This document shows positions 36,634 to 40,965 of a DNA stretch of 64,000 bases, piece after piece (within the stretch, counting starts at the first letter, position 1; each line of letters begins with the position of its first letter). The notes below the pieces were generated by a model. That model searched no databases and was not told where the DNA came from. It was given only the letters and a program-made list of their open reading frames with translations. Position numbers and translations under genes: made by a program. The stretch comes from Dyella choica (GTDB lineage: Bacteria > Pseudomonadota > Gammaproteobacteria > Xanthomonadales > Rhodanobacteraceae). The stretch spans positions 62,001 to 126,000 of the forward strand of contig NZ_RYYV01000006.1 of NCBI RefSeq assembly GCF_003977665.1. Direction: 5' to 3'.

Positions 36634-36955
36634 TGGTGGGCCCACCAGGATTCGAACCTGGAACCAAGGGATTCGCGTAGTCCAAAGGTTTCCCTCTGGC
36701 GCGGACTATCTCTTCACCCTCCGCGCTTGCGTGCGGGTGGGGTGCGGGACGCTCGAGCCTGTTATCAAGGACGCTGAAGTCCTCAGGTAGTCTCTGCACC
36801 TTCCGGCGGTGTACCGCCGGCTTGGCTCAGGGTTGCCGCCGATCCGCGTTGGCGTCGCTGCGGGTTCCCTGAATTCATCCCGTTCCCGTTCGCGCATTAC
36901 TGCGCGACGGCACCTTTCGATGAGTCCCCTGCTCTAACCGTTGAGCTATAGGCCC
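36634..36955 (-). tRNA. ileX: tRNA-Ile(CAU) gene interrupted by a group I intron
   Basis: Exon 1 is 36955-36920 (36 nt) and exon 2 is 36673-36634 (40 nt, with CCA encoded). Joined, they make a 76-nt tRNA: acceptor GGGCCTA/TGGGCCC, D-stem GCTC/GAGC, anticodon stem GGGGA/TCCCT with loop CTCATAA (anticodon CAT), T-arm CCAGG TTCGAAT CCTGG, discriminator A. The overall sequence, including ATA before GCTC and GACTCATAATC around the anticodon, matches bacterial tRNA-Ile2 whose C34 is modified to lysidine by TilS, so it reads AUA codons. Elongator Met is less likely. The intron interrupts the loop directly 3' of anticodon base U36. Simple tRNA scanners can miss it. It is essential in most bacteria, so splicing must work if this is the only copy. 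Confidence 0.9.
36674..36919 (-). ncRNA. Group I self-splicing intron in the tRNA-Ile anticodon loop
   Basis: 246 nt, minus strand. P1 is visible at the 5' splice site: exon CAT, then C-GAAA-G, then GTG, giving CAUC/GGUG with a U.G wobble exactly at the splice site and a GAAA tetraloop. Core elements: CCCTGAGCCAAGC (Q-type), a strong P6/P5-like hairpin CCGGCGG TACA CCGCCGG nearby, AAGGTGCAGAGACTA (R-type, guanosine-binding P7 strand) and GAAGAGATAGTCC (S-type, the other P7 strand, GACTA/TAGTC). The last intron base is G (36674), the expected omega-G. No endonuclease ORF is present. Site, internal guide (GUG) and size resemble the about 205-nt Azoarcus tRNA-Ile intron (subgroup IC3), an established ribozyme. 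Confidence 0.88.
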
Positions 36956-37131: not shown

Positions 37132-37503
37132 ATGAGCACTGAAAAGGTGGCGAAGCGGTTGGTGGAGCTGTGCCGCGAGGGTAAATACGAGCAGGCGCAG
37201 CAAGAGCTTTACGCGAAGGATGCGATCAGCATCGAGCCGCAGGAGATGGCGAATGGCCCCATGGGCAATGCCAAGGGATTGAAGGCGATCCTGGAGAAGG
37301 GACACCAGTTCATGGAAGCGGTGGAAGCGATCCACCAGAACGAAGTGAGCGAGCCGGTGGTGGCGGATGGCTGGTTCAGTGTGGCGATGCATCTGGATGC
37401 CACGATGAAGGGCCGCGGCCGGACGGATATGCGCGAGATCTGCGTGTATCACGTCAAGAACGACAAGATTGTGCAGGAGCAGTTTTTCTACGACATGCAT
37501 TGA
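37132..37503 (+). CDS. SnoaL-like / NTF2-fold protein
   Basis: 123 aa, cytoplasmic. The opening KVAKRLVELCREGKYEQAQQ with ELYAKDAISIEPQ (helix, then the Y-x-x-D-A strand) and the C-terminal ICVYHVKNDKIVQEQFFYD are typical of the SnoaL/NTF2 cone fold. The protein probably binds a small molecule, but a catalytic role is not evident. GGAGGTGGA precedes ATG 37132. It lies between the tRNA-Ile gene (opposite strand) and the IS481 element. Confidence 0.8.
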   Translation: MSTEKVAKRLVELCREGKYEQAQQELYAKDAISIEPQEMANGPMGNAKGLKAILEKGHQFMEAVEAIHQNEVSEPVVADGWFSVAMHLDATMKGRGRTDMREICVYHVKNDKIVQEQFFYDMH

Positions 37504-37586: not shown

Positions 37587-38845
37587 TGTATGGACCGGGG
37601 ACATGGGTAACAGGTGTTCGGGGACATGGGTAACAACTTACTCCATGGTGGTGGGCTGGGTCAGATCGACTCGGCCCACCACGTGGTGACAGAAATACAC
37701 CACATGTTGCCCGTCACACTGAGCATCGGGTTCCAGTGCGACAGGCAGTCCACGCAAGGCATGGGAGATGTGAAAACGTCGCCCCTGAAACTGAATGCGT
37801 CCACTGACATCGACCTGGCGCACGGCTAGTTCGGGCGCGTACTCGATGGGTGGTAAATGCTCTGGGTAGGGCCGCTCGCTGGGGCGATAACGTGAAGCGG
37901 GCACGTTCATCTGTAAGGCTTGATGCGGACGGTGCTGGTTGTAGAGATCACGATAGGTATCGAACGCCTGCTGGGCATCGACCAAGTCGCGCAGCCCTCG
38001 CCGTTGCAGCAGCCCCCGATTGAGCGTGCGATGAAAGCGTTCGTCTTTGCCGTTGGTCTGCGGATGATCAGGCCGTGCGTGCGTCAGGCTAACGCCCAGT
38101 TGGATCAGCCACACGCCCAGACGCGTGAGGCGATCCTCGCGATGCATCGTGCCCCAGGGGGAGCCGTTATCGCAGCTGATGCGCCAGGGTAGGCCATAAC
38201 GCCGAAAGCACTGGATCAGTGGGGCTTGCACATCGTGCAGCGTTTCGCCGGCACACGCGTGCAGCAGCACATTGAAGCGCGAATGGTCATCCAGCAAGGT
38301 CAAGGGATGACAGCGCCCGTGGGTCATCGGCACATGCCCTTTGAAGTCCATTTGCCACAGCGCATTGGGTTGAGGATGCTCGAAACGCTGCCAGGGTGTG
38401 GCGGCGATCGAGGCCTGCGCCTGAATGCGGCCGTGACGCTGCAAGATCGTGGTGATCGTGCTTACCGCCGGTAGCGTCGCATGCCCGTGATCCTGCAGAT
38501 ACCGCTTGAGCTTGCGGGCACCCCAATCAGGAAATTGGTCGCGCGTGGTCAGCAGCAGTGTTTCGATAGCCTCCTGAGTACGACTGGGTGAAGCGTGGGG
38601 ACGACGCGACTGATCCTCCAACGGTGCCGGTCGGCCCAGCCACTTATAACCTGTCTTGCGACTGATGCCGTAACGGCGACATAGATCGCTGACGTTCGAA
38701 CCTGGCTGACGCGCCAAGGCGACAAACTCGTTTCGTAGAGACATGGCACTCCTCGTGTTCCAGGGCATAGGCCACCTCGCTGGGACTCCAGCCAGGTGTA
38801 ACCCATGTCCCCGAACACTTGTTACCTATGTCCCCGGTCCATACA
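37587..38845. mobile_element. Complete IS481-family insertion sequence
   Basis: 1259 bp bounded by about 48-bp near-perfect inverted repeats starting TGTATGGACCGGGGACAT and ending with its complement ATGTCCCCGGTCCATACA. Each end carries an internal repetition of GGGGACATgGGTAACA. A 5-bp direct repeat CCCTG flanks it (37582-37586 and 38846-38850), the likely target duplication. It encodes one intact DDE transposase. The clean ends and intact gene suggest recent, possibly active, transposition. Confidence 0.9.
37638..38744 (-). CDS. IS481-family DDE transposase
   Basis: 368 aa. An N-terminal helix-turn-helix (SLRNEFVALARQPGSNVSDL then CRRYGISRKTGYKWLGR) binds the ends. The rve-type catalytic core has LWQMDFKGHVPM (first Asp), RISCDNGSPWG (second Asp) and HPQTNGKDERFHRTL (catalytic Glu), in that order and spacing. 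A C-terminal beta-domain follows (VRQVDVSGRIQFQGRRFHIS). ATG 38744 fits the family start MSLRxEFV; eight extra residues are possible. No frameshift is seen, so the enzyme should be functional. Confidence 0.93.
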   Translation of the reverse strand: MSLRNEFVALARQPGSNVSDLCRRYGISRKTGYKWLGRPAPLEDQSRRPHASPSRTQEAIETLLLTTRDQFPDWGARKLKRYLQDHGHATLPAVSTITTILQRHGRIQAQASIAATPWQRFEHPQPNALWQMDFKGHVPMTHGRCHPLTLLDDHSRFNVLLHACAGETLHDVQAPLIQCFRRYGLPWRISCDNGSPWGTMHREDRLTRLGVWLIQLGVSLTHARPDHPQTNGKDERFHRTLNRGLLQRRGLRDLVDAQQAFDTYRDLYNQHRPHQALQMNVPASRYRPSERPYPEHLPPIEYAPELAVRQVDVSGRIQFQGRRFHISHALRGLPVALEPDAQCDGQHVVYFCHHVVGRVDLTQPTTME

Positions 38846-38942: not shown

Positions 38943-40802
<1,860 letters not shown>

Positions 40803-40892
40803 ACCGTCCGCCGCGGGATAGGAACCAATCAGTATAGCGATGTGATGCTTTTTTGACCAGTTTTCAAGAGAAAAATTCGTTTCCATTGGCAC

Positions 40893-40925
40893 GCAAAAAT
40901 CGCGCCAAATCGCGGATTTGGGCGC
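40893..40925 (-). terminator. Intrinsic terminator of dtd
   Basis: GCGCCAAATC (40902-40911) pairs with GATTTGGGCGC (40915-40925, one bulge); on the minus strand GATTTTTGCG follows. An outer pair TTCCATTGGC (40881-40890)/GCCAATGGAA (40924-40933) extends the structure. It separates dtd from rpoD. Confidence 0.75.
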
Positions 40926-40965
40926 CAATGGAAGCGTTCTTTAGAGCAACGTGTTCACCTGGCAG

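Follow-up and report, generated by a model that had tools for sequence, protein, structure and literature searches.

The window analysed here, a stretch of 64 kb from Dyella choica (contig NZ_RYYV01000006.1, positions 62,001 to 126,000), carries on its minus strand a gene for tRNA-Ile2(CAU) at 36634-36955 that consists of a 36-nt 5' exon, a 246-nt insert and a 40-nt 3' exon (Table 1). A first-pass annotation, made from the letters of the sequence, had described this stretch as a tRNA-Ile(CAU) gene split by a group I intron, and this description was exact to the base. The Rfam family RF00028 (Intron_gpI) matched with 58.9 bits (gathering score 50, E 2.2e-12, model positions 1-253) and was the sole Rfam family above the gathering threshold in the 64-kb window; the covariance-model search which the annotation had named as a check thus gave a significant match. 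As had been claimed, removal of the 246 nt yields a regular 76-nt cloverleaf with a CAT anticodon, an encoded CCA and the loop CUCAUAA (ARAGORN). The program labelled this joined tRNA as Met; its likely identity as Ile2 rather than Met was read by eye from the body sequence. In the unspliced window ARAGORN found no tRNA. The splice-site features listed in the annotation, namely P1 formed by CAUC and GGUG with a U.G pair at the splice site and a GAAA loop, the P7 strands GACUA and UAGUC and a terminal omega-G, were all located in the window. The RNA of the unspliced gene was 5 SD more stable than dinucleotide shuffles (0 of 100 equally stable), and the minimum-energy fold has an anticodon stem formed by the two exons, with the intron between them. 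A chance resemblance or an assembly artefact was ruled out by RF00028 matches in relatives and by core matches in GTDB-220 genomes.

An integrase-core (rve) transposase at 37638-38768 separates the SnoaL-like gene from rpoD. In the window these two genes are about 1.4 kb apart, versus about 70-600 nt in those 13 relatives from the genus that have both, and the transposase is therefore probably a recent IS insertion.

Table 1. Positions of the split tRNA gene, the elements of its intron and the adjoining genes in the window
Feature	Position	Strand	Remarks
3' exon of tRNA-Ile2	36634..36673	-	nt 37-76, CCA encoded
Group I intron, 246 nt	36674..36919	-	between tRNA nt 36 and 37; omega-G is the final base
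P9.0, 3' strand	36675..36677	-	adjoins omega-G at 36674
P9 hairpin, GAAA loop	36683..36698	-	6/6 pairs covary, 94.3% paired
P9.0, 5' strand	36700..36702	-	P9.0: 2/3 pairs covary, 98.8% paired
P7, 3' strand (S element) UAGUC	36704..36708	-	invariant
P8	36715..36744	-	3/5 pairs covary, 99.3% paired
P3, 3' strand	36745..36751	-	covariation analysis of 56 introns
P7.1/P7.1a extension CCUG...CAGG	36758..36787	-	between P7 and P3; P7.1a 3/5 pairs covary, 99.6% paired; P7.1 invariant
P7, 5' strand (R element) GACUA	36788..36792	-	invariant, P7 100% paired
P6-P6a	36799..36825	-	P6a 7/7 pairs covary, 99.7% paired; P6 invariant
P4-P5 domain	36827..36872	-	P4 100% paired; P5 74.6%
P3, 5' strand	36876..36882	-	99.5% paired; 5/7 pairs invariant
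P2 hairpin	36886..36910	-	8/8 tested pairs changed on both sides, 94.2% paired; GNRA-type loop, GUAA here
P1	36911..36922	-	exon CAU and intron C against guide GGUG, U.G at the cut, GAAA loop; 4/4 pairs invariant in 56 introns
5' exon of tRNA-Ile2(CAU)	36920..36955	-	nt 1-36, 3' end is the anticodon CAU; same as in the unsplit tRNA-Ile2 of four genus relatives
SnoaL-like gene adjoining the tRNA	37132..37503	+	Pfam PF20409; member of the conserved locus by synteny
rpoD	38943..40928	-	anchor of the orthologous locus in relatives

Secondary structure and distribution of the intron

The secondary structure was assessed on 56 diverse introns, each less than 80% identical to the others. Across this set 97.0% of 3692 cells were paired, and 31 of the 66 pairs had changed on both sides. 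Such both-side-changed cells numbered 423 versus 115 in shuffles, and none of 500 shuffles reached as high on any of five measures; in a control with slid partners, pairing amounted to 35-44%. Covariation was seen in the helices P2, P6a, P7.1a, P8, P9.0 and P9. P1, P6, P7, P7.1 and most of P3 and P4 are supported by conservation and not by covariation, since their pairs never vary. The pseudoknotted core formed by P3 and P7 was present, both helices being almost invariant. All 56 introns had the U.G pair at the 5' splice site, and GNRA loops were found at L2 and at L9 in 55 of 56 introns each. The pairing register of P2 is slightly shifted in the Dyella choica intron. The model of P5 is only partly right, with two of its four pairs failing in about half of the 56 sequences.

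In a set of 100 genomes of relatives, Dyella choica included, a group I match was obtained in 20, of which 17 lay in tRNA-Ile2 and three in tRNA-Leu. An unsplit tRNA-Ile2 was recognized, by a strict pattern that left 23 of the 100 genomes with neither form, in 60 relatives and in none of the 17 intron-bearing ones. ARAGORN found none of the 17 split tRNA-Ile2 genes; because tRNA finders miss the split gene, intron-bearing genomes seem to lack tRNA-Ile2, which is a warning for genome annotation. Within the genus (16 genomes), the intron was present in 11 members and the unsplit gene in four; one genome of 86% completeness had neither. The unsplit genes of all four (G001, G002, G007 and G008) are identical to the joined exons over all 76 bases. 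The tRNA stands beside the SnoaL-like gene and rpoD in the ten other intron-bearing genus members and in three members with the unsplit gene (G001, G007 and G008), while no neighbour match at the tRNA was obtained for G002, nor for G023 and G046, which carry the intron and belong to another genus. In an rpoD tree of 28 rows, from which G008 and G013 were omitted owing to incomplete rpoD genes, the unsplit species were interspersed with intron-bearing ones, and six changes were needed over the 27 scored rows. The linkage of rpoD to the tRNA makes it a tree of this locus, in which the number of changes does not discriminate between gain and loss. The interspersed unsplit genes within the genus suggest that the intron is dispensable, and the empty sites may represent losses.

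A core pattern that fits all 17 tRNA-Ile2 introns in a slightly longer form was used to scan GTDB-220 genomes and matched at least 120 stretches. Among the 120 matches listed, 111 were tRNA-Ile2 genes cut at the same bond, eight were truncated and one was a tRNA-Asn. In all, 137 loci with the core pattern were evaluated, eight of them cut by an end of the stretch; 128 of the 129 uncut loci were tRNA-Ile2 genes with both boundaries, as determined by a script that demanded CAT before the intron and G plus AATCC at its far end. Not demanded, yet found, were a C as first base of the intron in 128 of 128 cases and GTG or GCG as the last three bases. The sole uncut locus outside tRNA-Ile2, L131, lies in a tRNA-Asn. 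The record labels among the matches listed were mostly gammaproteobacterial or 'Proteobacteria' and included Rhodanobacter, Lysobacter, Luteimonas, Dokdonella, Steroidobacter, Woeseiaceae, Granulosicoccus and many MAGs; four labels deviated (Actinomycetes, Halobacteria, Nitrosomonadaceae and Chloroflexi). Two loci with the same tRNA-Ile2 intron, L120 and L052, are on contigs labelled as a Halobacteria archaeon and Actinomycetes, respectively, possibly through mislabelling or contamination.

Of 369 genomes sampled evenly from the class, 56 gave a group I match. The P7.1-bearing tRNA-Ile2 intron at the same bond was present in 24 of the 369, Dyella choica included; this count derives from 69 examined loci, in which the entry for L208 was a false join. 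The intron is thus widespread in Gammaproteobacteria. The annotation had supposed that such an intron is not well described in this lineage. Indeed, no description of a gammaproteobacterial P7.1-bearing tRNA-Ile2 intron family was found in the open-access literature searched; its occurrence is, on the counts above, wider than the one lineage addressed. Group I introns in bacterial tRNA-Ile2 as such are known from Azoarcus, Acidovorax and Burkholderia, and what is new, as far as the open-access literature searched goes, is the gammaproteobacterial P7.1 family.

A homing endonuclease inside the intron was considered and rejected, because the ribozyme core occupies most of the 226-334 nt of the 128 delimited introns. 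The 20 ATG-started frames of at least 60 aa in these introns, the first ten of which reach at most 76 aa, were taken as chance frames. A plasmid search by DNA similarity returned no match to the intron; the query for plasmids and phages was 36673-36918, one base off the intron.

Ribozyme class and introns in other hosts

The distance from P7 to P3 in the Dyella choica intron is 36 nt, 30 of which form the stem CCUG...CAGG with its covarying inner stem. IC3 ribozymes have no P7.1/P7.2 between P7 and P3, which sets the tRNA-Ile2 intron apart from them; the single stacked stem P7.1/P7.1a at this place is a trait of the IA type, to which the intron may belong, its scoring having been done with the general Rfam model. 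According to one study, the IA2 td ribozyme resembles the IC3 ribozymes of Azoarcus and Synechococcus save for the P7.1/7.2 extension between P7 and P3 (PMC4498298), and another states that over half of the viral group I introns are IA2 (PMC11835236).

By DNA similarity, partial core matches to the intron were obtained in 13 phage records, none of them covering 80% of the query. The psbA-linked intron of Synechococcus phage S-SRM01 has 23 of 30 P7.1 letters in common with the Dyella choica intron, and both this intron and the terL intron of Vibrio phage 11895-B1 carry a P7.1 with the same ends, CCUGA...CUUnAUAACAGG. The Rfam cut-off was passed by the introns of S-SRM01, Vibrio phage 11895-B1 and the crAss-like phage cr55_1, while S-CBWM1 was below it in the stretch examined. 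The phage introns differ in lying outside tRNA genes, some of the phage matches being located at annotated endonuclease genes. The P7.1 motif occurred in at least 120 stretches of viral contigs, and no tRNA-Ile2 exons were detected by pattern among the viral stretches listed.

A tree of the ribozyme core was calculated from 58 rows with the P7.1 stretch cut out. It contained 22 phage rows, three of them from named phages and 19 from viral contigs. Of the 120 viral loci listed, 23 had a usable core, and four of these were dropped; S-CBWM1 (L337) gave none. The viral rows were picked by the P7.1 motif, so that their number says nothing; the motif itself is absent from the tree alignment. We label as IC3-like 13 introns without P7.1, of which seven are in tRNA-Leu, one is in tRNA-Ile2 and five have no assigned host. 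With 100/99 support, the tree, which has no Azoarcus row, separated these 13 from the introns of tRNA-Ile2, tRNA-Thr, tRNA-Lys, tRNA-Asn and phages. The same split appeared in a phage-free tree, built with a looser core pattern that lost 11 of 47 loci, including both tRNA-Arg and several tRNA-Leu introns; the strict core pattern failed for 35 of the 47. Branching on the P7.1 side was mostly not resolved, with four of the 22 phage rows among tRNA introns and the tRNA-Lys intron L214 beside the main phage clade (99/95). The 17 tRNA-Ile2 introns formed no single resolved clade, their monophyly being neither rejected nor supported (p-AU 0.341). Inserts of Azoarcus length (184-214 nt) in tRNA-Ile2 numbered zero in the 369 class genomes, and the tree is therefore without an IC3 intron at this bond. 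Judged by P7.1 and by the core tree with no Azoarcus row, the tRNA-Ile2 intron is probably not of the IC3 type and groups with phage introns.

These results bear on the likeness to the Azoarcus tRNA-Ile intron that had been pointed out in the annotation. The likeness of site and guide stands: PMC6274277 gives the same tRNA and the same CAU triplet beside the cut, and the P3-P9 core is held in common. It probably does not extend to the type of ribozyme, given P7.1 and the grouping with phage introns; the Azoarcus intron itself is set apart by description only, its lack of P7.1 being taken from PMC4498298. Group I introns in tRNA-Ile2 are also reported for Acidovorax and Burkholderia in PMC8450103, and their likeness in host tRNA is likewise known from description only. 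Spread of an Azoarcus-type (IC3) tRNA-Ile intron into this lineage would account for the shared CAU triplet and would fit the Acidovorax and Burkholderia reports, but it is improbable in view of P7.1, which is absent from the IC3 ribozymes of Azoarcus and Synechococcus (PMC4498298) as well as from the IC3-like introns here, and of the 100/99 split. Two ribozyme lineages may instead have reached the same bond. If so, the model tRNA-Ile intron would not be the sole route to this site, and two lineages would share the CAU triplet and the bond. The family, with 120 distinct intron sequences and same-locus empty sites in one genus, offers material for studying intron gain, loss and guide re-targeting.

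Introns on the same side of the tree were also read in other tRNAs. Four in tRNA-Thr(UGU) (L203, L205, L208 and L211) and one in tRNA-Lys(CUU) (L214) are inserted after U36, as in tRNA-Ile2, and have a P7-P3 stem by eye; they differ in the sequence of this stem and in guide bases that, also by eye, fit the other anticodon. The naming of hosts by candidate splice joins was noisy and gives a hint only, and the sites in tRNA-Thr, in tRNA-Lys and of L280 were read by eye. L280 is an IC3-like intron in a tRNA-Ile2 (29.1 bits, below the Rfam cut-off) at another bond, placed between nt 33 and 34; it stems from G144, whose order holds one genome. Both ribozyme classes hence seem to visit tRNA-Ile2. 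We tentatively propose, at somewhat less than even odds, that a phage-type P7.1 lineage entered gammaproteobacterial tRNA genes, re-aimed its guide at the bond following U36 in three or more tRNAs (Ile2, Thr-UGU and Lys-CUU), reached the Azoarcus bond independently of IC3 and came, in many species, to control AUA decoding on its own.

Locus L131 (about 2306-2915 of contig CADDZL010000084.1, labelled Chloroflexi bacterium) has a related core in what was read as tRNA-Asn(GUU). Its intron of about 564 nt contains a Cys-rich ORF that appears HNH-like by eye and had no Pfam match at 0.001. IC3-like introns were seen in tRNA-Leu(UAA) at L017, L019, L020, L258, L259, L260, L263 and L268; those from the same order or class (L017, L019, L258 and others) are likewise group I introns in anticodon loops, but they are inserted at another bond and have no P7.1. 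L254 and L262 are likely tRNA-Arg(CCU) introns.

Predicted splicing and the decoding of AUA

The draft genome of Dyella choica (5.49 Mb, 68 contigs, 99.96% complete) contains one RF00028 match. Among its 47 tRNA hits the split gene is the only tRNA-Ile2(CAU). The annotation had asked whether the chromosome carries another tRNA-Ile(CAU); neither a second one nor a tRNA-Ile(UAU) was found among all 47 hits, the other tRNA-Ile being tRNA-Ile(GAT) only. Judged by eye from their bodies, the two remaining CAT genes encode the elongator and the initiator tRNA-Met. A tRNA-Phe was found neither among the 47 hits nor by an anticodon-arm pattern, which is probably a gap of the draft; in a 68-contig draft without a detectable tRNA-Phe, a second tRNA-Ile2 may have been overlooked. 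A TilS gene is present (170 bits), and the joined tRNA has C4-G69 and C5-G68, which we take to be TilS determinants. TilS requires an intact, joined anticodon loop. With no further tRNA for AUA detected, the tRNA-Ile2 precursor should have to be spliced for this codon to be decoded. AUA makes up 11 of the 142 Ile codons in nine genes of the window.

We consider it highly probable, at about nine in ten, that the insert is a self-splicing, P7.1-bearing group I ribozyme which separates nt 36 from nt 37 in the single tRNA-Ile2(CAU) gene detected. Catalysis and the need for splicing are what we infer from the sequence. In the proposed course, the precursor would fold and the guide GGUG would pair with the anticodon CAU; a guanosine bound in P7 would cut after U36, and U36 would then attack after the omega-G at 36674, joining the exons. 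Bridging the intron, the exons could also pair with each other in the anticodon stem. An intact anticodon loop would be available to TilS in the joined tRNA only. The intron itself would be a nearly neutral passenger: its size leaves no room for a homing endonuclease, it has been inherited at a single locus within the genus, and it is occasionally absent without a scar.

Two other readings concern the activity of the ribozyme. A decayed intron that has lost splicing, with AUA read in another way, might be suspected from the RF00028 score, which is the lowest of the 16 genomes above the cut-off (range 58.9-73.2), and from the draft state of the genome. This is very improbable, as the core elements and boundaries are intact, the intron of the nearest relative (L015) is 96% identical, has retained the boundaries and reaches 60.3 bits, and no other AUA tRNA was found among the 47 hits. 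Alternatively, splicing could be protein-assisted or regulated, for instance by GTP or Mg2+, so that the supply of tRNA-Ile2 would be a control point and the intron not a neutral passenger. The single detected host tRNA, the low use of AUA in the nine window genes and the broad conservation in at least 120 GTDB-220 stretches would be in line with such a role; the unsplit genes interspersed in the genus, which suggest a dispensable intron, speak against it. We regard this reading as unlikely, and it is compatible with a self-splicing ribozyme in tRNA-Ile2.

Apart from the split gene, two adjoining odd tRNA-like hits were noted in the draft genome of Dyella choica at G000:C2:74671-74818, which ARAGORN named His-ATG and Leu-TAA.
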